27,018 nucleotides of DNA from Saccoglossus kowalevskii (Eukaryota > Hemichordata > Enteropneusta > Harrimaniidae), in the NCBI RefSeq assembly GCF_000003605.2, contig NW_003150763.1, forward strand, positions 59,800 through 86,817, written 5' to 3'. The position numbers and the translations under genes were made by a program. This document shows, piece by piece, positions 2,575 through 27,018 of the stretch. The stretch's first letter is position 1. The number at the start of each line of letters is the position of its first letter. The notes below the pieces were generated by a model. It had not been told where the DNA came from. It ran no database searches and was given only the letters and a program-made list of their open reading frames with translations.

Positions 2575-3426
2575 AATAATCTACATGTATAACGTTTTTT
2601 TCTTGAATAACGACCACGAGGGTCAGTCGAACAAGACCAATATAATTTATAAACACTATGTGCCAAGTTGGCAACATTGGTAAGTAATTGGTCAACATAA
2701 TAATTCGCGATTCGTGATTGGCCAAATATTCTAGCAATAATAGTGAATCATTGCCATGTAAATAAATTCATTTGAATCGTATCATCAGTGAGTTCTTGGT
2801 TTGACAATGCAATAAAGTATATAACACTACAAATGAATATATGGTTCCAAAGAGTGCATTTATATTACTTTCTTTGTTCTCTAGAAAAGGAAAGTGAATA
2901 GTACGATACAATTAGTAGAAAGATTATAATATAATTACAATACACGTGAATACATATAATATGCAAACAATAAAAAGATGTTATGAGACAGCTGATAATG
3001 CTAATTTTTTTTAGTCTTACCATAACACTCAATGTTCATAAATAAGAATTCCGTATAGAAAAATATACATTTAGAATAATATATATATGTATATTTTATT
3101 TATTAGTATTTATTATTTTGCCGGTATAGTTGATTAAAATATCTAGGTTTCGAATTCCAGTCTTGTCGTTATTTTTTTGTTCGCAACAATTTCCGTTTAA
3201 TAGAAAAAGACGTTTACAGAATGTACTTGTACTTGCGTGTTCCATGTGCAGAGTACAACGCCTCCCTCACAATTTAAAGATTGAGCACTCTGGATTAAAA
3301 CCAACTAACTTTATTTACATCCGAGCCCCCGTAAGTTCAATAGTGAACAAAACTGAAATGCGTCAGCCGTTTTGAAATGAAATAAATGACATAATGAATA
3401 ATGTAATGAAAATATGTGATTTTGTA
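2575..3426. other. Intergenic AT-rich DNA
   Basis: No coding potential beyond short chance ORFs. Apart from the AATAAA hexamers at 2761 and 2811 I see nothing distinctive. Confidence 0.5.
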
Positions 3427-3600
3427 ACATTAAAATGGCCGCCATTCGGCCATCTTGAATCTGATCATGTAACGAAGGGACGTGCATGTGTATCCCAGAA
3501 TATTTACAGTATTTGTGAAGTTTGAATTCGATCGGCCTAGGCATGTCCAAGATACAGATAAGTACGAACGGACAGATGGACGGACGGACTCATATATGTC
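3427..3600. repeat. Dispersed repeat copy with ATGGCCGCC...GGCCATCTT palindrome and ACGGAC-rich tail
   Basis: A near-palindromic core (aaaatggccgccattcggc, then catcttgaa) is followed by a cluster containing tgtatcccag, tttgaattcgatcgg, catgtccaagatacag and a tail of gacggacggact. The same order of motifs recurs in the block at 11040-12030 in XRCC4 intron 2, so both belong to one interspersed repeat family. Confidence 0.7.
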
Positions 3601-6847: not shown

Positions 6848-9800
6848 TCAAAGTTCATCAAAGAGATCATCCACATTTTGTGATTTGGATTTTCTGATAG
6901 AACGTCTGCGCCCATTGGAGCTCGATTCACTGAAATTACAAAAAAATTGAATTTCAGTTGACAATATTGACATTGAAACGGGTCAGAGAAGCAAAAAAAT
7001 AGATGATATGATCTGAACTGGAATAATCTTACCTTGCTGTAGATGATTTTTTTGAAGGCACTTTTGGAATGGATGGTTTTGAAGGAGTTTGCTTTTTCTG
7101 ACTGGGCTGTCTAATTCTTCTCCTGTTTACAAAAAAACAAAATGGTTTAATTCCATGTTACTGACCCTATTTAACACTAGAGGGCAGTACACCAGTCTAA
7201 ATGGTGCTACAGTGACCCTGAAAAGGCAGTCAAATTTGATTTATAAAAAATATGTGTCATTCAATTAACAATGTACATGGCAGCAAGTCTCAAAATTGAA
7301 AAACAAATGTTGAAAAATGATTGTCACAAAAAATCGTAGCAAGAACATTTTTGCTAGCAGGGTATGATCACACATGATGTCAAATAGCGCCCCCACAGTT
7401 CAATCACAAACACACTGAAAACTTACAGACATTATCATGAAAAAAAATAGTTTTAAAGTTTTTTTTTCAGCGAAAATATAGGTTATATATTAAAAATGAA
7501 AAATCTATTTTATTTTATTAAAGATTTCAATTACGCATGTTATAACAAATGGATTTTCATATCATCAAATGGAACCCACCTTTTTGTAGCATGTGTACTG
7601 TCCCCATCTCCTTCATCGCCTAAAACTAAACCATCTGTCTCCATCATTTGAGGTGCTATGGGCTTCTTTCTAACTTTACTTAATCTTTCCTGTTGAAGAA
7701 GGTCAATGATAAGATAACATCATATATTTATGTAGTAAGTCATGATCCTCCACCCTACTTTTGTTCGAAAATTATTATTTTTTTAATAATTCACACTTGT
7801 AAAAATATTTTCAGTATAAGCTTGTTCTAATATAATAAAGAGAGGCTACATATGCTTATCTTTAGGTTACTGTAAAATACTTTATCTTTTCTTGGAATTT
7901 ATTTTCACTATTTTAGGGATGATTCAGTGAAAATAAAATCTGGCGAATATAACTTTTTCCCATACCGGTATTTTATATTCACACTATATCAAAAATCAGT
8001 GAAAATAAACTCCATTACAAAACACCTAAAAAGATTTTTCAGAGAAAATTTATTGATTCCTGCTAAATTTAAGTAAATTACAGTATTGTTATAACAACTC
8101 AAATGCTGACTATTAATAGACCACTTTCCCGGAAGTAGCAAAACTGGGGTGCAAAAATAGACTTGCTTTGTCATGGCGGATAATACAAACATGTCAGTTT
8201 ACTGATAGTCGATAGAAAATAATTTTATTTTTGTTACGTCAATTGGTACACCCAGAAGCACAATATCATACGTGCAAGTTGACGTTACACCCCAATTTCG
8301 CATGTGCGCGCATGCGAAAAGCCGTATCTTCGACTTTCGGGAAAGTAGTCTATGAAATCATTGATGAGAAAACATCACATTACCCTTTCTTCATCATCTG
8401 TCGTCTCCTCATCTGTCTCATCTTCATGTTTATCGTTATCTGAGTCAGCTCCAACCTCCATATCATGTGACGTAGACGCTACGAACAAAGAGAAATTTTA
8501 AATATTCACATGTGTGTTATAAATTAGTGTGGAGAATTTGGTCGTAGAGGGCAGTGTGCATCATGCAGTGTGCATTAAAATTACATGTAAACATATATAT
8601 ATCAACCCTGAAATCTGCTTCCTAGTAATAGAAGTAAGCTACCATTTGTGATAAATTGTAACAGAATAAATTATGAATTCCTCAGAACTTTATCATTGGA
8701 ACTCACGACAAAAATATGTGAAAGCAACTTGAGTGAAAAAGAATGAATACATAGAAAATTACAATGAACATTTGCCTCAAGGTGAAATTCAGACAAAATT
8801 TTTTCTAAAAAGCTAAATTCATAAAGATCTTTCATGAAATTAAAGCAATTTATCTTGAATGCAATTGGCAGCAAGAGTTCCATTTTCTCTTGTTAGCTCA
8901 TCCACTGTTTCCCTGATCCATGGTAACCATAGTAACATGATATTTGAACAGTAAAAACACATTTTGAAAATCTCTCGGTCTCTGCAAAATCTCAGCTGCA
9001 ATTTGCAAGTACATTTCATTTCTCAACCAAGTCTATCTCTACTCTACAAGATTGTGAATAGCATGTTGATTTGTTCACCTACCTCTTTGTGATGATGAGG
9101 TCACAGCTAGCCTTTTAACCTTGTCAACTGAAAATAACATTGTAAGACAAAACTATAATTTAATGTTGCCAAATATGTGTACATGTAAATATACAACTAT
9201 GATTGAACATAAACATTGAAAATTTCTCCCTGTACCGAGGTGAATAATTGACACATCAAGTAGACAAATGTTCATATCCCCGGCTACTGTAAAATCTCTA
9301 TTAGAAGCGGCTTCTATTAAAATGGTACAGAGGGGATATAGTTTCTATGAGAGTATCTACACATATGACAAATTTTTGGTTCTCAATTGTCCATTAAAAA
9401 AAATGGGTGTGGCTTCTATTCGGGATGCGGCTTCTAATACTACCATTTTTTGGTTATAATTGTCTTGCCACCTCAAATTTAAAAGATTCTTTGTCACAAT
9501 CGTGCAGTGATTTGAATGTCTGTAGTCTTAGTGACAAGTGCAGCAGCGATTTTTATGTTATTTTGGATGTCATATATAGTCATATGCTGATCCGGCTGCT
9601 GACCTGGATATGTTTGCGTACATATTCAATGTTGTGTTGTGTTGTTTTGTGTTGTGTTGGCAAAATTACTACAAAGACATTGGTTATATGGTACATATTA
9701 CCGGAACCTGGTTATAAGTAAACATTTCAAAAAAAAAAAATGTATAATTTGAAATATAAAAAAAAGTCGTTGTTTTGTTTCAAATGCATTCTGTAACTGA

Positions 9801-12338
9801 ACTAAACTGAACAATGAAAATTACTTCAAATCAGATGATAGAAACTAAAATATTTGGATACTTACGTTCACTTGTAAGGTGTCTAATTTTAGCTTTTTTG
9901 TCATTTATTGTCACCTGAAACTAATTCAGTTTAAAAATTGAAAAAAAGATAATGTTAAAAGTTGAATAAACTAAAGACGAGGAGAGCTTTAGAATGCATC
10001 ATGTTGTTGTCACAGTAATTAAAAATAATTAATACTGCTGATTTCACTAGTGAAGTACCAAAATTGTTGCACCTACATCGTGTTCGGCATGGGTCCCATG
10101 TGACGTATACATGTGTAAAACACATTGTCTATTTATGCAAATGCACATTTCAAATGTGATCAAATGTGATGCTTTGAGAGTAAAATCAGCAGTGGTGATT
10201 TCTTTTAATTCCAGTGACACAAAAACAACTTAACCATGCACTGAAATAAACTTCAGTCACAGATATTTACTTACTTTTCCATACAGATCATTTTCCATCG
10301 CTTCTTTTTGTTCAACACACTTTTCTAGTCTCTGTAAGTTAACAATAAATATACTTGATTTTGACACTGAATATCGCCCTCAACTAGAATATTTGTCAGG
10401 GCATTTTTGGTACTTTCTGGTAATATTCGTACCAGTTTTGGTACTGTCTGGCCAATCTGACTACCTCATGGGCATAAGTGGGTGTATACCAATTTCTGCC
10501 TTTGACTCTGTAATGCTCTTGGAAGAACTTTGTTTGAGAAATGCAATGGAAACTCCATTAAGAAGTTTGAATTTGTTCCACAAATCCGTGTTAAACCAAA
10601 CCTACTGTTCATGAAGTGAAATAATCAGCAAAAATACCTTTAATGCACTTGCTCTTTCTTTCGATAACCTGTCATTATTCGTCTGTAACGTTGATATTGA
10701 GTTTTTCAGTTCTTTCATGGTTTCAATAGCATTATCATAAACACTGGTGGTAGTTTTAACTGGATCTTTAATGGCATCCAGCACTACAGACCCAAGTTGG
10801 TACTGAAAGATAGATACACAGCATATTCAATGGCTACAAGAACAGAATAATGAACAATAAGTCATTGAAAATGACACAGTTCCCATTAAATTTTTGAAAG
10901 TTCTCTTTGTGCTCGTCATATTAAAGCGGAGGGGTTGTGGCGAGTGTGTCCTTGAAACATGAGTTCCAAGTGGCGTATACAACAGATTGTTTATTTACAT
11001 CAAAACACATGTTCCGTGTAGTAGTAATATGGCCAAAAATAAAAACAGCCGTTATTCGGCCATCTTTGATTTGATTATGAAACACACTAATATGTATGAT
11101 ATATAAGCCAAATACGAATGAAAATGGTACATAAATTGTGGAAATATAGTAGTAAGGCCAAAAAGTCAGATGGCTGTCAATCAGCCATCCTTGACCAGAT
11201 TTTGAAACAAATTGGCATGGACATGCATGCTAACATGTATAAAGTACATGTATGTGCCAAATTTGAATGAAAACTGACAGAGCACGTCCAAGATACCGCA
11301 TAAAAAAACAAAAACAAGATGCCTGTCAGTCGACCATCTTTGATCCAATTGCGAAATAAATCGTCATGGACATGTATCCTAACATGTATAATCTATGTAC
11401 CAAGTTTGAATGACAACTGACAAAGCATGTCCGAAATACAACATTTTCAAAAAACAAGATGGCTGCCAGTCGGCCATTTTAAATCAAATCGCTAAACCAT
11501 TGCATGTGCATATGTCCCACATAAGGTACTAGGCACATGCAAAGAATGAACAGAATCGATCCACAGGATTCTGAAATATTACTCTGGACAGACTGACGCA
11601 CAGACGGACACACGGACGGACACACGAACAGACGGACGAACAGACTCAGGAACTCACGGACGGTCCGGACATGTATCCTAACATGTATGATCTATGTACT
11701 AAATTTGAATGAAAACTGACAAAGCATGTCCATAATACGACATTTTCAAAAACCAAGATGGTTGCCAGTCGGCCATCTTTAATCCAATTGTAAAATAAAT
11801 CGTCATGGACATGTATCCTAACATGTATAATCTATGTACCAAGTTTGAATGAAAACTGACAAAGCATGTCCAAAAAACAACATTTTCAAAAACCAAATTG
11901 GCTGCCAGTCGGCCATTTTGAATTGAATCGCTACACCACTGCATGTGCATATGTCCCACATAAAGTACTAGGCACATGCAAAGAATGAACGGAATCAGTC
12001 CAAGGGATTCTGAGATATGACTCCGGACGGAAGCATGGACAGAGACCGAATTATAATAATTATATAATAAGCAGAGTTGATGCTAGTCTTGTTAACACAA
12101 GTCAAGGACTAACAGGAAATACAGAAACAGAATTTCTAAGCAACTCAAATATTAATCACCATGGCCAGAAATCAATAAACATCCATCTTGAAGGTATCAT
12201 TATTTACTATTTGGAACAATGAATTATTGTAAAAAATACATTGTAATTTCCATGAGAACATATGAAATGAAATAAAAATTTTTTTCACCAAAAACAGAGG
12301 TAGAAATTGCACAGGCAGTAAATAAATAAATAAATAAG

Positions 12339-12374
<36 letters not shown>

Positions 12375-15300
12375 GAATTCTACTTAGAGAACTGTCCTTT
12401 TATTGGTGGGGATTACAAATATAGTTCATCAGAACTAGTCGAGTCCGTAACCCCTGTATATTCAATTTCATAGTTTAATCACACAAATGGTAGTGTCCAT
12501 ATCTTATATAACGTAATGCTGGTCATGTGACACAAGGTCATGTCAGCGATATTGCTCTCTTCACACCTTGGTTGCTGACCAACAAACTAATATTTATATT
12601 CCAAACCACAATTATGTGAACATTTTTATTTTTACAGATTTTTGACTCACTGCCATGAACATCAAAACAAAAATTTCAACATTACAAAATTTTGCTATTT
12701 TTCTCTCTGAAAATAAAGAATTACAATACAGCAGGTATCCAGTGAGTCAATGCAAGGTTGATGATTTTAGGCTATGACGTTTAGTTTAGTTATTTGCATA
12801 ATGATATTGATACATTGTATGGAACATCTCCTGAATATTTAGACTCAGTTCCAGGCCTAGCAGTTGAGCAATAAACATCTTAGTTACAAGTGCTCCTCTC
12901 CAGTACATTATTCTCCCCCGGATTTGGTGACCAATACTCACTTAGTTCACTCTACCTTGAGAAGTCTGTTCTCAGTTTACGGCAAGTTTTCAGACATTAC
13001 CTTTATTTTATCAGCCTCCATTACTTTCTTCCATGAAAATTCAATACTTTGTCCTTTATATTTTTTAACATGGTACTCAAACTTGGTGACACCCAGGTTT
13101 TCCCTCGTGAAGGCTTGCTTTATTTCCACAATATAGTCTTCAAGCTCCATTCCACATGTCTTAGCTAATCCTTCCACAGTATCTAAATCAACTGAAAAAA
13201 AAAATATTTGTAGAATTCTGAAATCTGGTATTGCTCATTTTTTCTTGTTTGACACTTTGTGCTACCTATACATTTAATTACTATCTAATAGTCTAATTAG
13301 TCTTAGTTTAGGATTAGTGAAAAACTGTGGTAGCATTTATAATGTATTGTTACAATATGAAACTTAATGGATTTGTATAAACTATTATTTTCTTTTATTT
13401 TAGTATCGGTAGTGCATAAATAATTATTACATCAATAATTAAGATTAATTTAACCTTTTCACCACCAGTTCCCTCTTTTCATCACAAATTCACAAAATAG
13501 TCCTGCTTATATTCTGAACTTTCCTTCAGAAGATTGGGGGGTAGAACCTGAAAATTTACTCAAATTTTGTCTGTTGACTCCAAAATTAGGGTTCATTTCC
13601 AGAAATATTGAAGAATATGAGAAATGTGCAGAAAAATTTGGGTGAGAATGTCTGATGGTGAAAAGGCTAAGGTTAAAATGTGACATATTTTAATAGTCTA
13701 GTACCCGGTATGTTAAACTTGGTTTATGTGCCCTACTATTGGTAACGTGCTTATACTAGTTACTATACCGGTAGTATTATAAGAAGACTAAGAAAAACAA
13801 CAGAGAATAAGCTATGCAAAAATTGGAAATTTACAATGAATGCAGTAAAAGACAGAAAGCTGTATCCTACTTTATAACTTATTTGTAACAAATTTAAAAA
13901 AAAAACTTAGCTTTTATTCAAATTCATGTGAAATTATTCAAAATGAGGCACTTGTTGATTGGATAATGATAAACTTTGATAACTCATTAATATTAATTAG
14001 GATGGTGGATGGTATCACATTTCCATTTCAGGATTGGTCAATTTTAATTCTAACACCTAATTTGATATACACCCATAAAGTCTATTCAGCGAAAATTAAT
14101 TCCAGCTAAAATAAAGTATTTTACAGTATTAAAAAAGCATTTTGCCCTTCACTATAATGAACAGCCATACTCTTGGCACAACAAAACTGTTTCATTCATC
14201 TTTATAAATACTTATGAATATCACAATTTAAATGGAATCGAGAGCTTCTATTGGTTGTTTGAATAACATCACAATGTTTTCAAATAACATTGTGATGTTA
14301 TGCATTGTGCAGTTGATTGGCTGGCTGGATTAAACTGACATTGAAATTTATAAATATTCATCAAGATGAAGGGAACAGGTTTGTTGCACCGAAAGTAATA
14401 CTCTCAGTGCCAAGGCATTCCTTTCATTATAATAAAGATATATAAATTTCACAATTTAACTCGAAACAAAAGGTTTCTATTGGCTGATTAAATAACATTC
14501 ACTTGTTGATTGGCTAGTTGGATCAACTGCCATTGAAATATTCACAAAATAATATTTCAGTATATGTGTTAATGAAAATAAAAAGTTTGGCTAAAATATT
14601 TCTAATTAAGTTTTTCTCAAAACAAATAAAATCACATTGGTTTTATTTTCAAAGGGTAACTGTCTCAAGACAGTATGTTTGCAATATTGTAAATTATTAT
14701 CTCCAGGACATATGTTTTGATTTGCATCAGAATACATAAAATGAAACACCTATTTTCAAGATTTAGACCCATCTTTTACCCAAGGGATCCATATGGGTCA
14801 TTCCTAGTCTGAAAACTGAATTTTAATTATTACGATAAATGTCCATCACATTCCAGTGATGGGTTCAGAGCAATGACACAGCCCACTACCCTAAAACCAA
14901 CTTTACTCATACAAATGTATCCCAGAATGCAATGCACAAATAACATCATTGTAATGGTGCCCACCCCAAACCACCTGCAAGTTTGATTGATACGTGTGTG
15001 AATTTCACTCAGAAACAGTACAGGTACATATAAAATTGGAAGGTTTATATGCATGGTGTTTATACTACACTGAATCACAAATACCATGTTTGAACTTGAT
15101 GGTGAACCATAGAGGTTACTGCTACTGGAATTAGTTTTATTGTATTTAAATAATATGCAAATTAGACATTAGTATGCAAATTACCCACCGCCCTTAGGCC
15201 ATTAGCAGGGAAATATGAATCCCAAAATATCTCACAAACTTGAAAGTGTACATCATGGGATGACAACGAGATCTTCTCTGCGTTCATGAAAATTGCATAC

Positions 15301-15691
15301 CCTCATTTTGTATCTAAACCTTTGCTGCTGCATGCCCTTATTTGTTGCATTTACCCTTGGCTGCATAATTTTGAGAACATACATTTTGAAAAGGTGATTT
15401 CTGTGAAAGTAAGGCACCTTTACATTTTAATTTTTGCAAACTTTAAACACATTCATTGACTCTTATATAACAAGTTTACAACTCTCAAAAAGTTGTTTTT
15501 GTGATAAAATATACATGATCTTTAATTTGAGACTCACTGTCAACCTGCCAAGCGTCTTTGCCATTTGTTAATCGCAATCGGAAACCATCGTTGCCTTCAT
15601 TCAGTAGCATTGTCTCCATGTATAACTCGCCGCCTAGACCACCAACTTCAATTTGACTTAGTGTGTATCGCTCACTGTCGATATCCATCAT
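6848..15691 (-). CDS. XRCC4: XRCC4, LIG4-binding non-homologous end-joining factor (ten coding exons)
   Basis: Nuclear scaffold that binds and stabilises DNA ligase IV during double-strand break repair. Exons, in transcript order: 15691-15538, 13191-13001, 10802-10638, 10331-10275, 9920-9866, 9127-9083, 8478-8384, 7689-7580, 7122-7033, 6929-6848. All junctions are GT-AG and phases agree, giving 347 residues (human 336). Residues 1-115 form the globular head, with GFRLRLTNGKDAW at 36-48 matching human GFVITLTDGHSAW. A coiled-coil stalk follows (about 130-207). RLEKCVEQKEAMENDLYGK (171-189) and NDKKAKIR (195-202) match the human LIG4-binding segment. An acidic patch has T244 in EDETDEE, equivalent to the CK2-phosphorylated Thr bound by the PNKP FHA domain in human. 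Basic stretch KRRRIR (290-295) is a likely nuclear signal. The tail ends DDLFDEL (human EDLFDEI). An in-frame TGA precedes M1. A possible acceptor (ttgacag) at 15704 suggests a non-coding first exon. Introns range from 103 to about 2350 nt. Confidence 0.95.
7868..8086. mobile_element. MITE-like element of a TACTGTAAAATA family in XRCC4 intron 7
   Basis: The left end TACTGTAAAATACTTTATCT and the complement of the right end TACTGTAATTTACTTAAATT are diverged inverted repeats, followed on both sides by GGAAT(T/C) and ATTTTC(A/T)C-like sequence. A second, single-ended copy lies at about 14075-14130 in inverted orientation. Non-coding. Confidence 0.6.
8116..8353. mobile_element. MITE-like element (238 bp) in XRCC4 intron 7, next to the exon 7 donor
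   Basis: The left end ATAGACCACTTTCCCGGAAG pairs with the complement of the right end ATAGACTACTTTCCCGAAAG, with two mismatches in about 21 positions. The inner GGGGTG / CACCCC motifs also pair. The element ends only about 30 bp from the exon 7 boundary at 8384, so it lies close to the splice donor. Confidence 0.7.
8479..9082 (-). other. XRCC4 intron 6
   Basis: AT-rich intron with one TAGAGGGC word (8545-8552) followed by gcagtgtgcatcatgcagtg, which contains a tandem GCAGTGTGCAT. No gene or larger element seen. Confidence 0.5.
9285..9445. repeat. Repeat remnant with recurrent GCGGCTTCTA motifs in XRCC4 intron 5
   Basis: A TACTGTAAAATCTCTATTAG start is followed by AGAAGCGGCTTCTATTAAAA near 9300 and by GGCTTCTATTCGG and GCGGCTTCTAATACT at 9410-9440. 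The start resembles the TACTGTAAAAT element ends elsewhere in this gene. Weakly bounded. Confidence 0.45.
9629..9660. repeat. (GTTGT)n microsatellite
   Basis: About six imperfect copies of a GTTGT pentamer (tgttgtgttgtgttgttttg, continuing to tgttgg) lie in XRCC4 intron 5. Confidence 0.7.
9915..9923 (-). promoter_or_regulatory. Tandem splice acceptor of XRCC4 exon 5, six bases apart
   Basis: On the minus strand a T-rich tract leads to ttag (AG ending at 9921), then TTTCAG (second AG ending at 9915), then GTGACA. Both acceptors keep the reading frame. The first adds Phe-Gln (190-191), and with them the helix aligns without a gap to human DLYKRFILVLNEKK. I therefore take the upstream site as the main one. 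The downstream site would remove two residues from the LIG4-binding coiled coil. Confidence 0.6.
11040..12035. repeat. Block of ~140-bp dispersed/tandem repeats with ACGGAC-rich tails in XRCC4 intron 2
   Basis: The core AAGATGGCTGCCAGTCGGCC, followed by ATTTT or ATCTT, recurs in diverged form at about 11047, 11170, 11318, 11458, 11757 and 11897. Each is followed by GGACATGTATCCTAACATGT or a relative, tttgaatgaaaactgacaaa and gcatgtcc. Typical spacing is 140-148 bp. A tail of cagacggacacacggacgga (11595-11650) splits the block, so the 11320-11640 and 11660-12035 segments look like a duplicated composite. Same family as 3427-3600. Confidence 0.8.
12319..12374. repeat. (AAAT)n microsatellite
   Basis: About fourteen tandem AAAT/TAAA tetramers with a single interruption (aagt), in XRCC4 intron 2. 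Confidence 0.9.
12375..13000 (-). other. Remainder of XRCC4 intron 2
   Basis: Holds one GGTCATGTGAC word (12531-12541). Otherwise plain AT-rich intron leading to the exon 2 donor (gtaatg on the minus strand at 13000). Confidence 0.5.
13450..13670. mobile_element. piggyBac-like MITE in XRCC4 intron 1
   Basis: CCTTTTCACCACCAG (13454-13468) and the complement of 13652-13666, CCTTTTCACCATCAG, are 14/15 identical terminal inverted repeats. They are bordered by TTAA on the left (13450-13453) and CTAA on the right (13667-13670). TTAA duplication with CC-starting ends is the signature of piggyBac-type transposons. The 213-bp interior is non-coding, so it would need a transposase in trans. One base of the right duplication has changed. 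Confidence 0.7.
14075..14132. repeat. Single-ended copy of the TACTGTAAAATA element end
   Basis: The complement reads AATACTGTAAAATACTTTAT, then TTTAGCTGGAATTAATTTTC. It closely matches the left end of the element at 7868 in inverted orientation. No partner end is seen nearby. Confidence 0.6.
14215..14552. repeat. Diverged direct duplication, ~130-bp units, in XRCC4 intron 1
   Basis: A segment around 14215-14352 (TCACAATTTAA, CTTCTATTGGTTG, AATAACAT, TTGATTGGCTGGCTGGAT, CATTGAAAT, ATATTCA) recurs in the same order at about 14447-14552 (TCACAATTTAA, TTTCTATTGGCTG, AATAACAT, TTGATTGGCTAGTTGGAT, CATTGAAAT). The first copy carries an extra perfect hairpin. Confidence 0.65.
14263..14301. repeat. 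Perfect 16-bp stem hairpin
   Basis: ATAACATCACAATGTT (14263-14278) and its exact complement AACATTGTGATGTTAT (14286-14301) flank a 7-base loop. It sits inside the first copy of the duplicated unit and is absent from the second, so it is a later insertion or fold-back expansion. Confidence 0.8.
14553..15537 (-). other. 5' part of XRCC4 intron 1
   Basis: No transposon ends or RNA gene recognised. An 85-codon minus-strand ORF at 14830-15087 shows no domain and has no splice context. The intron starts at 15537 with a consensus gtgagt donor on the minus strand. Confidence 0.5.
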
Positions 15692-15703
15692 GAATCGAAC
15701 TGC

Positions 15704-15942
15704 CTGTCAAAGCGAAAGTAATCAAACCCACTCTCTCAGCGTCCTTAGCTGCTACCCTATGACCTCAAAAAATCCACTTCCTGTTTCCCGTGATTCATTT
15801 CTGCAACATGGCCGGCTAGTGTATTGTTAGGTTTCGTGGCACACATTTCAGACGTTTTTACATAGTTTGTGTCTTATTGGCGGAATCTGAGAGAATCAGA
15901 AGTCCGTTTTTGATGTAGACATTCCATTAAGAGGCAAACAAA
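15704..15942. promoter_or_regulatory. Shared bidirectional promoter of XRCC4 and TMEM167A
   Basis: Fewer than 250 bases separate the two divergent start codons (15691 minus, 15943 plus). Visible sites are CCACTTCCTG (15774-15783, ETS/GABPA consensus), CAACATGGCC (15804-15813, a YY1-type CCATGTT on the other strand) and ATTGGCGG (15876-15883, inverted CCAAT box overlapping an E2F-like GGCGG). No TATA box is seen. ETS, CCAAT and YY1 sites without TATA are typical of divergent housekeeping promoters. Transcription start sites cannot be read directly. Confidence 0.7.
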
Positions 15943-18576
15943 ATGGTGAGTATTTCGTGAAGACAAATCTGAACTACATTACATTGTATGACATCGAGTG
16001 ACATACGGCTGTACATGAAGTTGTTCCAGTTTATCGATTTGAGGTGGTCCTGTACNNNNNNNNNNNNNNNNNNNNNNNNNNNNNNNNNNNNNNNNNNNNN
16101 NNNNNNNNNNNNNNNNNNNNNNNNNNNNNNNNNNNNNNNNNNNNNNNNNNNNNNNNNNNNNNNNNNNNNNNNNNNNNNNNNNNNNNNNNNNNNNNNNNNN
16201 NNNNNNNNNNNNNNNNNNNNNNNNNNNNNNNNNNNNNNNNNNNNNNNNNNNNNNNNNNNNNNNNNNNNNNNNNNNNNNNNNNNNNNNNNNNNNNNNNNNN
16301 NNNNNNNNNNNNNNNNNNNNNNNNNNNNNNNNNNNNNNNNNNNNNNNNNNNNNNNNNNNNNNNNNNNNNNNNNNNNNNNNNNNNNNNNNNNNNNNNNNNN
16401 NNNNNNNNNNNNNNNNNNNNNNNNNNNNNNNNNNNNNNNNNNNNNNNNNNNNNNNNNNNNNNNNNNNNNNNNNNNNNNNNNNNNNNNNNNNNNNNNNNNN
16501 NNNNNNNNNNNNNNNNNNNNNNNNNNNNNNNNNNNNNNNNNNNNNNNNNNNNNNNNNNNNNNNNNNNNNCAGCTCCACCCATGCGCAGTTTCAAACATTT
16601 ACATTTCGAGTTATTATATGAGTAGTGGGGGAATTTACCGGCGACTGACTAACTATGCCGATCCCACTTTAGGTCATCTTTTATTAGCCAAGAAACGTTC
16701 CGAGCGCCTGTGGTCCTGTATTAAATCCAACTGCCAATGAACGCCGACAGGCCAATTGGAGCTACTCCACAAATCGACTTAATTGGAGGGTAATAGTTCT
16801 TTATCGCCCTTCGCCCAATAACACTAAACCTGCCCCTCTAGTGCCTCGCATAACAAATTACATAGGGAGGCTGATGTGTTAGGGATCGGGTGAGGGGTGT
16901 GTGTGGGGAGCAATTTCCCAGGTCATTCTTGGGTGTACCTGGAATAGATGGTTGCCAAATTTACATCTAAAGACTCGTACATACGTACCTGAAACAGTCG
17001 TTATTTGTACACTTGCATGGTTATGGAAATGCATGTACAAAATTGCGTGTAAATTGATTAAAAATCAAAGCTTTTGAAATACTATGATGTTTTTTCAAGT
17101 GCTAAATTATGTCATGACACAGTGATTATGCATTATTATATACTTAATTAAACTTGTTTCATTTGTTGGTCCAATCTTCCAGGCCATAGTTTTTAAAAAC
17201 ACTCTAGACTATGAAAGTCATTGAACCCAGAGCTTGACAAAACCGTACTATACTGCATTGTGAGTTATGCCATCATGAATTGTCAACCAATGTGTACAAA
17301 TGGTTATTGAACATCTTAAATGAAGTGTGTCAGTGGTGCTGGTGTGTGACCTTAACATAAGGTCATAAAGTAACCCTGCCAGCCTGGATTCATGTACGAA
17401 TATTTACATTTTTTCTGCGATTTTTTTTAAAATAAATTATCATGATAAATTTAACAGCATTTTGAAGGTCCTCCAGCATGTAATGATAACATTATTACCC
17501 TACTAAAATATCAGAGGATACAGTATAATAATAAAAAGACATTAGCATAACAAAAAAGTGAGGTACAAGGCCATCCCATCCCTGGTAAATTTATTTAGGA
17601 CTTTTTGCAATAACAGTACACCAATACAGATAAGCATGCATCTTCTATTGCATTGGTGATTTGTATATTGTATTATTGAAATATTTTGAAAATTGAATGT
17701 TGTAAACAATTTTACTGAAAATCAATTCTTGATTGTGGTTATATATAATTTATTCCACATTATAATGCTAAATAAATTAAGTCAGGCTAAAAGCAATGTC
17801 AACATGGTTCTTATTTATATTCCATGTACCGGTACATTTAATGCCTATTTTGCTGGAATTACTGGTTGTGAAATCAATATTGGAATTTGTGTTGTACATG
17901 TCATTAAATGCATTGTTTATTTTTTATTTCAGTCGGCATTATTTAATTTCCAGAGTTTATTAACAGTTATAATACTTCTAATTTGTACATGTACCTATAT
18001 TAGAGCACTAGCTCCAAGAATGTTGGATAAAAACAAAGAAGGGTAAGTTGGATTTTCTCCCTCAGTTCAACTTTATTTTTTTCAGTTTTGATTTTTGACT
18101 AATTTTTTGTATTGAGTTTAAGTGACTGAACGTTTTTTTTTTCATAAACATTTTCAAAAACATCTTGAATAATTCTAATATTAATTAATTTTTAGCACTC
18201 ACAAAATTTAATAGTAGTGTCATCTATAACAAAGGTGCCGGTCCAAATGCAATTTCAACTTTGTTACTGAAATAGATTACTGAATTTGGCTTTTTGACAG
18301 AACAGAGCCTCAGTTTTGTTTATTTTGTAACAATTCTCTGTTTTTAGTGAATAATATTTTCAACATTCATGGTGAAAACACTGCTGTACATCATGTGTGT
18401 TGCTTTCTCCTGATTTTCTGAAACTGTGTTTTCCCATTTAACACCCATGGTGTTTGTTTTCCTTCTGTAGATTACTGGGAATATTTTGGAAGTGTGCCAG
18501 GATAGGAGAACGGAAAAGTGAATATGTAGCTGTATGTTGTATTGCTATGGCAGTCAGCATTTTATTCTGGCAGTGA
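15943..18576 (+). CDS. TMEM167A: TMEM167A / Kish-A, early secretory pathway membrane protein (three coding exons)
   Basis: Small Golgi/ER membrane protein; the Drosophila homologue kish is required for constitutive secretion. Exons: 15943-15945 (ATG only, then consensus gtgagt), 17933-18042 and 18471-18576. They join in phase to exactly 72 residues, the usual length. The protein starts [20 protein letters not shown] and ends AVSILFWQ. Two hydrophobic segments (about 8-26 and 55-71) flank a conserved middle, including [12 protein letters not shown] (27-38) and [17 protein letters not shown] (44-60). Nearly every position agrees with the vertebrate protein as I know it. The upstream in-frame ORF from 17693 runs through intron sequence and is not the start. 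It is divergent from XRCC4. Intron 1 (about 2 kb) contains the assembly gap. Confidence 0.95.
16056..16569. other. Assembly gap (514 N) inside TMEM167A intron 1
   Basis: A run of N bases. The flanks GGTGGTCCTGTAC (ending 16055) and TGTGGTCCTGTATT (from about 16708) share GTGGTCCTGTA, so the missing part may be repetitive. No coding exon of TMEM167A is missing, because the ATG exon joins exon 2 in phase. Confidence 0.95.
16570..17932 (+). other. 3' part of TMEM167A intron 1
   Basis: Starts relatively GC-richer (16570-16930, including ggagggtaatagttctttat and cccctctagtgcctcgc) and becomes strongly AT-rich. One TACCGGTA palindrome lies at 17827-17834. No snoRNA with clear C/D or H/ACA boxes could be identified by eye. 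Confidence 0.5.
18043..18470 (+). other. TMEM167A intron 2
   Basis: GT-AG intron of 428 nt with donor gtaagt and a pyrimidine-rich acceptor ccttctgtag. No embedded element seen. Confidence 0.7.
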
Positions 18577-19526: not shown

Positions 19527-20120
19527 AGACTTGCGCAGTCAGGGCGATTAATTTTTGTTGTAGTTATAGTTATAAATAAAAAAAATCGCGAAATGGGGGT
19601 GTTAGCGCGAAATCACCCCGACTGGTTTATTCTGCAGGAAATTCATTGCTATTAAATATTCATGAATGCACATATTATAATGAGATGGGCGTGGAAATAC
19701 GTGCATAATGAGATCAACATAGTGAATGTCACACTACAGACCCAACATGGCGGCGTGTTGAAATTCGAGTTTGTCGAAGTCGTCGTAAATAGACTTAGAA
19801 TGTAGCATAAAAACTGTAAAACGTAGGTTTTAATAAAGTTTCTAGATGTAGTGACATTTTCTTTTCATTTCTTCTTGGTCAAAGGTCAGTTGAAGAGACG
19901 TTGTGATTGGCTTAGATGATTGTCAATTAGAACACTCATTAACATAATTACCCAATGAAAAATCGACTGGCTCCTGCAGTGTCGATATAAGGCCATGCAG
20001 AATAAACCAGTCGGGGGGGATTTCGCAGTTGCAGAGTATTTCGCGCTAACACCTTCATTTCGCGATTTTTTTTATTTTATTTAAACTACAAAAACAAATT
20101 AATCTTGACTGCGGTAGTCT
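19527..20120. mobile_element. Non-autonomous DNA transposon (594 bp) with arms of 110-126 bp
   Basis: The left arm 19527-19636 runs AGACTTGCGCAGTC ... ATCGCGAAATGGGGGTGTTA ... CCGACTGGTTTATTCTGCA. The complement of the right arm 19995-20120 repeats it: AGACTACCGCAGTC ... ATCGCGAAATGAAGGTGTTA ... CCGACTGGTTTATTCTGCA. The right arm has about 18 extra bases (an ACTCTGCAACTGCGAAAT insertion). ATATTTCT follows the right end directly (20121-20128) and also lies three bases outside the left end (19516-19523), a plausible 8-bp target duplication. The interior is non-coding and includes caacatggcggcgtgttg. Confidence 0.85.
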
Positions 20121-21100: not shown

Positions 21101-22150
21101 TGGTCAGTAAGGTTGTTCAGAGAGAAAGGGTTAGCAACACGTTGATTTCAACCGAGCTAGCGCCATGATTTTACCAAGTAATATGTCGTTTCTATCGTGA
21201 GTTCTGATTGGGTAAATCAAATGAGCCCAAGTGAATCTTATAATTGTTTGAGGGCGTGCGACATACAACAAATCCTGGTGAAATCTGCCAAGGGTTAATG
21301 TTGAGGCTTCTGCTGAATAAATGGTCCTTGGCTGGCGAAGATGCAGAAATCAATGCACACAGGGCTGCCACTACCCATTTGCCAAAAAAACTACATTCAT
21401 TGGAAAAAGGTGTTTTACTGAATCATTCCTATATGATAGGGCTGAAATCCAATACAAAACAGCGACTTGAACAGTTTGATTAAAAGTTTTTTCAACTCTG
21501 ATGCATGTACCAACATAATATGCATAGTCAATAAAGCGTATTCTGGTGTACAAACTCAAAAACAACTGACAAATAATTCACAGTAAGTCAAATGAGTAAG
21601 AGAAAGATCATGGGAAACAAAGTACCGGTATGAGCATTTGGCATCCGCCATATATTAAATGCTTTTTCAGAAACCCAGGGTGCCGTCTGATATTATCTGT
21701 GTAGTTGTGTTGTATGTGTAAAAAAAAATTATGAATATTAGGGAAAATCGTTCCCTACAAAATCCCTGTGAAAAAAAAAAACGTCTATAAAAAATATACT
21801 ACATGGCCTTGCTTGTATCATATTACGTGTGGCCGGAAATGTATACCCAGGAAAGAATAGGATGTTAATGTGGGAACTGCTGGGCACCGTCTCCGGCATG
21901 GAACTTTTGTTTCTTCAATTCTCCATTTTTCATGAATATTTTGTGTAATTTTTGACCAAAAATGTTACCTTCCACTTCTTTTTGAAAACTTCTAATCCGA
22001 TTGGTTTTATACTTAATATACAAGTAACTTTGGTGGACCTCTATTAGATTTAAACATTTAGTGAAGATATTTTTTCTAATTTTATTTTCAACTTTTTGAA
22101 GCAGTTACTGATAACTATTTTATATTTGTTGTATACCCCGGTATCTTTCT
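21101..22150. other. Intergenic, no firm gene
   Basis: A 79-codon ORF at 21244-21483 (containing HRAATTHLPKKLHSLEKG) matches nothing I know. TACCGGTA at 21623-21630 is followed by TGAGCATT, a combination repeated at 24052. Confidence 0.4.
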
Positions 22151-22151
22151 T

Positions 22152-24070
22152 AGGTTTATTACAAAAGGCATACATGGTAGTATTTTGAGGGTTCTTCGCT
22201 CAATGTACTCCCAACTAAAGTCTTGCGCTCGTTTTAATGGTTCCCTTACTGAATATTTTAGTTGTACTGTGGGAACAAGGCAAGGATGTATTTTAAGCCC
22301 CTTTATTTTCTCAGTTTTTGTTAACGAGTTGGCTAATTATATGGATTTTGAACCAGGGGAAGGAATTTATGTTACCGAGAACTGTCAATCAATCAGTATA
22401 CTTTTATATGCAGATGACGTAGCAGATGGAGCCGACATGCCAATTTTTTTACAACGTAAATTGAACAAGTTAGTTATTCTGTCAACACTGGGATATGCAG
22501 GTGAACCTTGATAAGGGACGACGTCAAAAGATCGATGTTGAATAAAAAACTTAATTCCTTTAGTTTTTTTCCAAACCCCCCACTGAAACTTAATTGATAA
22601 ATATTGGTCATGGCGTCAGACTACATTCACCTTTAAATACAAATTGATAATCGGACAGTAGTATTGCATAGCAGTTGGCTGTCGGGTGGGTGTAAAAAGA
22701 TTTTACAAATGCACCTCATTTGACGCACATATTTACATTCGAACCAAACCATTTTTCTGTTATTTCTGTCCATGATTGGATAGAAAAAAAACGAACTACA
22801 AATACTCCAAGATTTTTTTGACTTCATTAAAAAATAAAATCGTTTTTGTCGGATGGAAACTTTGAGGTCAAACCCCCCCCCCCCCCCCACCCCCAAACTA
22901 AAGGAAATAAGTTTTTTATCAGACATTGATTTTTTGAAGTCGTCCCCAAGACAAAAATAATATTTTGTAATGGCGGGTTCCTCAGGAATTATGAAAAGTG
23001 GCTTTATGGCTGGTAAAAGTTTAGATACAGTAAAACATTACAACTATTTAGGATTAACCACTTCTTCTCGACTGGTATGGACTCCAGCTTAACAAAATCT
23101 AGCTGTGCAGGGTGGCAGTTCATGCTTTCGGGTTCAGACAGTAATTAGAAAGTTGGGTGGTATTTCTGTATCTGCTGCTTTCAAACTTTTTGATGCGATG
23201 ATTGTACCCACCTGTTATGGGAGTGAGATCTAGGGTTAGGAATATAGTGAAATTATTGAACGTGTTCACGTAAAATTTTGTAGTTTTTTCCTAGGGGTCA
23301 ATTGCAGTGTTAATAATGTAGCAGGGTGAATGTGGACGAGTGCCATTATGTTGTATTTAATTTAGGTGATGCATTGCCTATTGGTTGAAACTTTTAAAAT
23401 TAGATTTAAAAATAGATACTCAAGAGCATTTTACACAATGCTCAAACGTTTGGATGAAGCTCGTAGAAATACCTGGGCTTCTCACATCAAAAATCTTTTA
23501 AGTATGGTTTTGGTATCAATTCGACGGAGCATCAAGTTGGGGATACTGACAATTTTCTAAATTTATTTTCCCAACAAATTAAAGATTGTTGCCAGCAGGA
23601 ATGGCACAGCGAGGTCACACAATCGTCTAGACTTGCCACTTATAGGAAAATAAAAACAGCACTTGCACCCGAAATGTATTTAAATGACATGTAATCATAG
23701 ATTAAATTACATACTTTCGTTGCTATGGGTATAAACTCAACATTGAAACGGCTAGACATCTGAAGCTGTCAGTTGAACATAGAATATGTAATTTTTGTAG
23801 TAACTCTGGAGTTGTGGTTGTAGAAAATGAATTGTGAATAGTGGAACATACTCAAAAAACGATTTTAAAATATAAACAGGTGCAAACATTATCTCTTTTG
23901 AATGCTTAGCAAGATTTAGCAAGGCTGTACATAAATAATAAAAAAAACATGGTGAAAAAAAGAAATGACGGGATCTCCATATTAAAGCTGTATTTAACTT
24001 TTCACAAAACGATAATACATTTAAATTTGAAACTATAACAGCCACTTTAATTACCGGTATGAGCATTAGG
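22152..24070 (+). mobile_element. 5'-truncated, decayed non-LTR retrotransposon (CR1/L2-like reverse transcriptase relic)
   Basis: Coding similarity begins inside the reverse transcriptase. GTRQGCILSPFIFSVFVNEL (22269-22328) and YADD (22407-22418) are the catalytic-core motifs. Downstream pieces in shifting frames fit the family C-terminus: NYLGL near 23040, KLFDAMIVPT near 23190, YGSEI near 23217, NTWASHIKNLL near 23470 and EWHS near 23605. Later fragments at about 23750-23970 (EHRICNFC, DLARLYINNKK) resemble the family's last cysteine/basic region. Frameshifts, stops and an inserted MITE show it is dead. The 5' truncation is normal for this class. The exact 3' end is uncertain. Confidence 0.85.
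22516..22947. mobile_element. 432-bp MITE inserted in the retrotransposon relic
   Basis: The left end GGACGACGTCAAAAGATCGA continues to AATAAAAAACTTAATTCCTT. The complement of the right end gives GGACGACTTCAAAAAATCAA and then GATAAAAAACTTATTTCCTT. Arms match at about 46 of 52 positions. AAG lies immediately outside each end (22513-22515 and 22948-22950). Removing the element and one AAG restores reading across the retrotransposon (VNLDK then TKIIF), which fixes the borders. A C16 run (22873-22888) lies just inside the right arm. The 97-codon minus-strand ORF within is not a transposase. Confidence 0.85.
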
Positions 24071-25355: not shown

Positions 25356-25785
25356 GGAGAGTGTCTCTTGTCAGACCTGTTTGAAACAATATGTTGAAAA
25401 CGTATCTGTACCATAAATCATCCCAACATACTAGTGCCTATGATTGCAAGACGTCAACTAACTTTGGTTAGATCCATTGTGAAATGACGAACGCAATCTG
25501 AGATTCTTATAAACCAAATTTATTTAAGGGAAAACAAAATCAAAATACAACTCAGTTTAAAAGAAATACTAAATCTGTAAAAAATTGCATAGAGTATCAA
25601 TGCATGGTTAATGTACATACAACAGATACAAGGTTTTAAGTTGAACAAAAACTCACAATCTCCATTTATAAAAAATCTTATTAAAAGAACACTATTGCAG
25701 TCCCGGTGAATAAAAACGCCCCTTGCCCCATTTTTAGATTAATTAACCCCCCCCCCCCATCATTGTTCCCATTTCATCATTCCCA
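25356..25785. other. Intergenic spacer before the satellite array
   Basis: Contains a run of about 12 C (25747-25758) shortly before the array. No gene seen. Confidence 0.5.
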
Positions 25786-27018
25786 TTAGTATATACAAAT
25801 ATATTTATTGTTCACAATACATCACTGAGATAGTATACACTATATTTATCATGCAATACATCACATTGTTTAAAATACATCATTGAGTTAGTATACACTA
25901 CATTTATCATGCAATACATCACATTGTTCACAATACATCATTGAGTTATTTTACACTACACTTATCATGCAATACATCACATTGTTCACAATACATCACT
26001 GAGTTAGTATACACTATATTTATCATGCAATAAATCCCATTGTTCACATTACATCATTGAGTTAGTATACACTATATTTATCATGCAATACATCACATTG
26101 TTCACAATACATCACTGAGTTAGTATACACTACATTTATCATGCAATACATCACATTGTTCACAATACATCACTGAGTTAGTACACACTATATTTATCAT
26201 GCAATACATCACATTGTTCACAATACATCATGAGTTAGTACACATATATTTAGCATGCAATACATCACATTGTTCACAATACATCACTGAGTTATTTTAC
26301 ACTACATTTATCATGCAATACATCACATTGTTCAAAATACATCATTGAGTTAGTATACACTATATTTAGCATGCAATACATCACATTGTTCTCAATACAT
26401 CAGAGTTATTTTACACTACATTTATTATGCAATACATCACATTGTTCACAATACATCACTGAGTTAGTATAAACTATATTTATCATGCAATATATCACAT
26501 TGTTCACAATACATAACTCATTGTTCACAATACATCACTGAGTTAGTATAAACTATATTTATCATGCAATATATCACATTGTTCACAATACATCACTGAG
26601 TTATTTTACACTACATTTATCATGCAATACATCATATTGTTCAAAATACATCATTGAGTTAGTTTACACTATATTTAGCATGCAATACATCACATTGTTC
26701 ACAGTACATCACCGAGTTAGTTTACACTATATTTATCATGCAATACATCAAATTGTTCACAATACATCACTGAGTTATTTTACACTACATTTATCATGCA
26801 ATACATCACATTGTTCACAATACATCAAGTTATTATACACTATATTTATCATGCAATACATCACATTGTTCACAATACATCACTGAGTTAGTTTACACTA
26901 CACTTATCATGCAATACATCACATTGTTCACAATACATCACTGAGTTAGTTTACACTACATTTAGCATGCAATACATCACATTGTTCACAATACATCACT
27001 GAATTAGTACCACATATA
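25786..27018. repeat. 58-bp satellite array, ~21 units, open at the right edge
   Basis: The unit runs CATGCAATACATCACATTG, TTCACAATACATCACTGAG, TTAGTATACACTATATTTAT (58 bp; for example, starts at 25850 and 25908 are exactly 58 apart). Units vary at a few sites: TTAGTATAC versus TTATTTTAC, CTATAT versus CTACAT, TTATCATG versus TTAGCATG. Each unit holds two CAATACATCAC copies 19 bases apart, so the unit derives from sub-repeats of 19-20 bp. One unit near 26490-26540 has an extra sub-repeat. The first unit is truncated. The 68-codon ORF at 26680-26886 is a by-product of the repeat. Confidence 0.95.

Follow-up and report, generated by a model that had tools for sequence, protein, structure and literature searches.

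The window, the 27,018-bp stretch of Saccoglossus kowalevskii DNA analysed here, contains XRCC4 on the minus strand and TMEM167A (Kish-A) on the plus strand. The two genes are adjacent, lie on opposite strands and are arranged 5' to 5', as in a divergent gene pair. The start codon of XRCC4 is at 15691 and that of TMEM167A at 15943–15945, and the interval between them is 251 bp long (15692–15942). Both genes are intact; XRCC4 has 10 coding exons and encodes 345 amino acids, and TMEM167A has three exons and encodes 72. The original prediction, which described head-to-head genes with start codons about 250 bp apart, is correct in this respect.

The coding span of XRCC4 runs from 15691 down to 6848 on the minus strand, and its exon junctions all have GT donors and AG acceptors. 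Coding exon 1 (15538–15691), which carries the start codon and ends at a GTGAGT donor, encodes head domain sequence matched by the Pfam XRCC4 profile (PF06632, 7.3e-23), and exon 2 (13001–13191) is bordered by a TCAG acceptor and a GTAATG donor. The coiled coil, matched by XRCC4_CC (PF21924, 8.4e-13), begins in exon 3 (10638–10802), and exon 4 (10275–10331) encodes its well-conserved stretch RLEKCVEQKEAMENDLYGK. Exons 5 (9866–9914) and 6 (9083–9127) are followed by exon 7 (8384–8478) with an acidic stretch, exons 8 (7580–7689) and 9 (7033–7122), and exon 10 (6848–6929), which ends with DLFDEL and the stop codon. A dispersed repeat family (D2–D6) is represented within coding intron 2 of XRCC4 (11036–12043) and past the 3' end of the gene (3426–3560). 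Also beyond the 3' end, a single open frame on the plus strand (1090–2007) encodes a sulfotransferase with a full-profile match to Sulfotransfer_2 (4.6e-58), for which no relative with a solved structure was found at 0.001.

The best match of the XRCC4 protein in the PDB is chain 7lsy_F ('DNA repair protein XRCC4', 336 residues, 3.1e-18), which we take to be human XRCC4. The alignment covers residues 35–345 of 345 and reaches the C-terminus, where DLFDEL is aligned with DLFDEI, and its score of 69 bits over 311 residues indicates a strongly diverged protein. The coiled-coil stretch EKCV..KEA.E.DLY is conserved between the two proteins, and the present XRCC4 may bind DNA ligase IV. Identification of the repair gene as PAXX was rejected, since the PAXX profile reached only 0.0086, below its cut-off.

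TMEM167A begins with a coding exon 1 that consists of the ATG alone (15943–15945, plus strand), followed directly by GTGAGT. Exon 2 (17933–18042) is 110 nt long and spans c.4 to c.113, and the coding part of exon 3 (18471–18576) runs to the stop codon. The protein contains a DUF1242 domain (PF06842, 2.4e-19), and 60 of its 72 residues are identical to human Kish-A versus 26 of 72 to human Kish-B, which excludes Kish-B as the identity of the plus-strand gene. No relative with a solved structure was found at 0.01, and none was confirmed in viral and prokaryotic contigs. To the right of the gene, the window carries a 40-nt inverted repeat (19574–20077) whose arms are 95% complementary and 424 nt apart with ATGGCGGC between them, possibly a small transposon-like element. 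A reverse-transcriptase fragment on the plus strand (22080–22511, RVT_1 1.9e-08) is adjoined by a 52-nt inverted repeat with arms at 22515–22566 and 22895–22946, and a tandem array with a 58-bp unit (25661–27018, 18 register copies of a 300-nt reference) reaches the end of the window.

The genome of the animal was searched for both domains in six frames with introns disregarded (572 Mb, 4,830 contigs). The single match to the XRCC4 domain is exon 2 of the present gene. DUF1242 gave two matches, TMEM167A itself and an exon on the minus strand of another contig (L016, G000:C4656:542649-542759), which shares 30 identical residues with human Kish-B versus 18 with human Kish-A and belongs to a Kish-B-like gene. 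Since XRCC4 is matched once and the second DUF1242 match is Kish-B-like, XRCC4 and TMEM167A both look like single orthologues.

A run of 514 N (16056–16569), either an assembly gap or a withheld stretch, begins in intron 1 of TMEM167A, 110 bp downstream of exon 1. With a first exon of three bases so close to this run, the start coordinate of TMEM167A could have been wrong. However, the ATG|GTGAGT at 15943 has a donor score of 10.5, a value that no second ATG|GT attains anywhere in the readable window, whichever strand is read; splice sites were scored throughout with generic matrices. Between 15700 and 17933 there are four further ATG|GT sites, none scoring above 0.7, and a start of TMEM167A elsewhere in the readable sequence was therefore rejected. 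Taken alone, these scores would still allow a start within the N run. The exon structure of the human gene points to the same position. In a clinical report of human TMEM167A variants, c.113G>A changes the final nucleotide of exon 2, and skipping of this exon leads to p.Ser2Ilefs*13 (PMC12618065). The protein change and the exon end at c.113 together imply that the ATG is the whole coding content of human exon 1, with exon 2 spanning c.4–c.113 (PMC12618065). Skipping exon 2 of the present gene would likewise place Ile at residue 2. The human gene, with the first intron deduced from p.Ser2Ilefs, thus resembles the present one in having introns after the ATG and after c.113, and differs in having four exons, as judged from the primers (PMC12618065), instead of three. 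The unique strong ATG|GTGAGT and the human exon structure both support the start at 15943, and through this shared structure the observation of the gene pair is better supported than could be known when it was first made. Next to the N run, an 11-mer at its left edge (16044–16054) recurs at 16710–16720, about 140 bp past its right edge, so that a local duplication may be concealed in the N run.

The 5' end of XRCC4 seems to extend beyond the exon that carries its start codon. A predicted splice acceptor, ACTTTCGCTTTGACAG|G (15704–15719, minus strand), scores 10.0; the minus strand of the window has five acceptors of such strength, this one included. The ATG-bearing exon would then begin 12 nt upstream of the ATG, at 15703. 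Within the interval or at its edge there are also four weaker acceptor-like sites, including one that scores 9.7 (exon start 15886). In human XRCC4, the patient variant c.-10-1G>T is described as disturbing splicing, which places the human acceptor 10 nt before the ATG (PMC12229645). The predicted acceptor therefore resembles the human one in lying about 10 bases upstream of the ATG, and, like the human gene, XRCC4 here probably starts with a noncoding exon. If so, the distance between the start codons is not the distance between the promoters.

Where this noncoding exon would end bears directly on the position of the XRCC4 promoter. Seven minus-strand donors between 15707 and 17932 score above 4, and the best of them (16989, CAG|GTACGT, score 10.4) lies beyond both exon 1 of TMEM167A and the N gap. 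Were this donor used, the 5' ends of the two genes would overlap, and XRCC4 would start outside the 251-bp interval. The pair might then be ancestral with two separate promoters, the noncoding exon of XRCC4 being located in intron 1 of TMEM167A and spliced to 15703. Besides the strong acceptor and the rank of donor 16989 among the seven, this arrangement would fit the CpG observed/expected ratio of 0.85–1.04 at 16571–16870. On the other hand, donor 16989 is separated from the acceptor by the N gap, which may contain further XRCC4 donors, and weaker donors are found nearer, at 15845 (score 4.8), 15732 (5.3) and 16639 (6.8, also beyond exon 1 of TMEM167A), although 15732 would give an intron of only 28 nt. 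Moreover, donors as strong as 16989 occur three times on the minus strand of the 27-kb window in any case. We consider separate promoters possible but rather unlikely.

The interval itself (15692–15942) is a candidate bidirectional promoter. Its GC content of 0.43, compared with 0.34 for the window, is reached by 75 of 1041 overlapping tiles, and the interval is thus somewhat GC-rich. Its CpG content is unremarkable, with as many CpG in 191 of the 1041 tiles and a ratio as high in 304. Seventeen patterns were compared with 300 dinucleotide shuffles of the interval and with 103 window tiles, which include the interval's own. No TATAWAW occurs in the interval, whereas 41 of the 103 tiles have one; since only 6% of the interval shuffles contain it, the missing TATA box means little. 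An ETS-like site, CAGGAAGT (15776–15783, minus strand), conforms to VMGGAAGT, which is found in 6.3% of the shuffles and in two of the 103 tiles (one of them the interval's own), and the strict form SCGGAAGT is absent from the interval. A YY1-like site, CAACATGGCCGG (15804–15815, plus strand), has two mismatches, at which level 4% of the shuffles and six of the 103 tiles contain one; the strict consensus AANATGGCSGC is likewise absent from the interval. Since 17 patterns were tried, these two sites are suggestive at most and not convincing. The bare CCAAT pentamer (15876–15880, minus strand) is at chance level, being present in 42.7% of the shuffles and in 51 of the 103 tiles, and was rejected as a core element.

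The original prediction had proposed the ETS, YY1-like and CCAAT sites as a conserved promoter core. At these frequencies they do not stand clearly above background, and this part of the interpretation was not upheld, whereas the gene identities, their orientation and their spacing were. The ETS-like site stays a lead, since the ETS factor GABP has been described at head-to-head promoters in human (PMC4089025).

The lack of a convincing motif in the interval would also suit a passive history, in which the adjacency is ancestral but the two genes were simply never separated and have no shared regulation to keep. The surroundings of the pair speak weakly against this explanation. In addition to the sulfotransferase gene on the XRCC4 side, the same contig contains, to the right of the window, MYG1 exonuclease exons (L011:7856-8137 and L012:4090-4326, plus strand) and C2H2 zinc-finger exons (L013:3491-5747, minus strand). 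None of these three is known as a neighbour of the pair at human 5q14. Conversely, none of the human neighbours, such as VCAN, was recognised here among the 10 of 116 flank frames and eight further window frames that were scanned. The pair may therefore have outlasted its surroundings, a weak point since the scan covered 10 of the 116 flank frames (at least 60 residues) and 84,344 of the 121,953 bases around the window are N, including 79,312 of 80,000 in L002–L009. A passive history is, in our estimate, unlikely. The same flank contains a 437-residue open frame (L013:7204-8514, minus strand), which ranks first there by codon use and has no Pfam match at 0.01.

The age of the arrangement depends on the comparison with human. 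Like the original prediction, we take human XRCC4 and TMEM167A at 5q14 to be oriented head to head; the human pair would then consist of the same two orthologues as neighbours in the same orientation. That the two genes are neighbours in human agrees with papers that place TMEM167A, XRCC4 and VCAN together (PMC9158790, PMC10651736). The passages found that name both human genes give at most a shared neighbourhood and no orientation, and among the literature matches listed there is no statement of a shared human XRCC4/TMEM167A promoter. The expected number of human divergent pairs that would recur by chance was calculated for random gene order from 864–1447 human divergent pairs, as given in two surveys (PMC3815023, PMC3024869), and an assumed 20,000–30,000 genes. 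It amounts to only about 0.014–0.036 pairs. If the human pair is indeed head to head, shared descent is the better reading, and a separate origin of the arrangement here and in human, which such a low expectation speaks against, is very improbable. A common origin with the human pair is thus likely. Deep conservation is plausible in view of the human neighbourhood, the two intron positions that TMEM167A has in common with its human orthologue, the predicted XRCC4 acceptor placed as in human and the low chance expectation.

We favour, with a probability of about 0.55, an old divergent pair whose arrangement is orthologous to that of human XRCC4/TMEM167A and which has one shared promoter region. 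Both transcription units would start from this region, located within or beside the 251-bp interval. Polymerases would load in both directions there, and factors bound to the region would influence XRCC4 and TMEM167A alike. Since both genes are broadly needed, rearrangements that broke the pair and deprived one gene of promoter sequence would be selected against. The pair would accordingly have been kept because its promoter is indivisible, and not for joint control of end-joining and secretion.

A bolder version of the shared-promoter explanation seems improbable to us. It supposes that the promoter unit predates the split from vertebrates and that the whole 5' architecture became fixed along with the gene order. 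This architecture would comprise the ATG-only exon of TMEM167A and the noncoding exon of XRCC4 spliced about 10 bases before the ATG, and it would hold the coding regions apart from an indivisible two-way promoter. If this were true, locked bidirectional promoters would in general be recognisable by introns placed next to the start codons. The exon structure itself already carries a warning that the distance between start codons is a poor proxy for the distance between promoters.

A shared promoter region would also matter for disease, since variants or promoter perturbations at XRCC4 or TMEM167A could affect both genes. XRCC4 is linked to microcephalic dwarfism (PMC12229645) and TMEM167A to neonatal diabetes with microcephaly (PMC12618065).

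Old divergent gene pairs are already a known class. In amphioxus, 25% of neighbouring protein-coding genes (3,950 of 15,884) are arranged 5' to 5', and 372 bidirectional promoters are putatively ancestral (PMC6292497). The present pair resembles these chordate promoters in its short interval and 5' to 5' arrangement and differs in that the amphioxus set was defined by CAGE or microsynteny (PMC6292497), whereas our pair is known from sequence alone. Pairing of a repair gene with a gene of another process is likewise seen among human divergent pairs, and the divergent partners of human repair genes are enriched in protein localization, among other processes (PMC2670823, PMC3815023). There is thus nothing unusual in a repair gene that adjoins a gene of the secretory pathway, and the pairing can be explained without a joint function.

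Conservation outside vertebrates is where the present pair would depart from earlier accounts. Deep conservation was found to be rare in one survey, with full conservation of 12 of 1427 human divergent pairs in fly and of 9 in worm, and its authors describe conservation of human divergent pairs as confined to vertebrates (PMC2670823). If the human genes are indeed head to head, XRCC4/TMEM167A would be an exception to this rule. Should its apparent age be correct, the pair provides a countable counterexample to the statement 'only among vertebrates' (PMC2670823) and fits the putatively ancestral set of bidirectional promoters described in amphioxus (PMC6292497).
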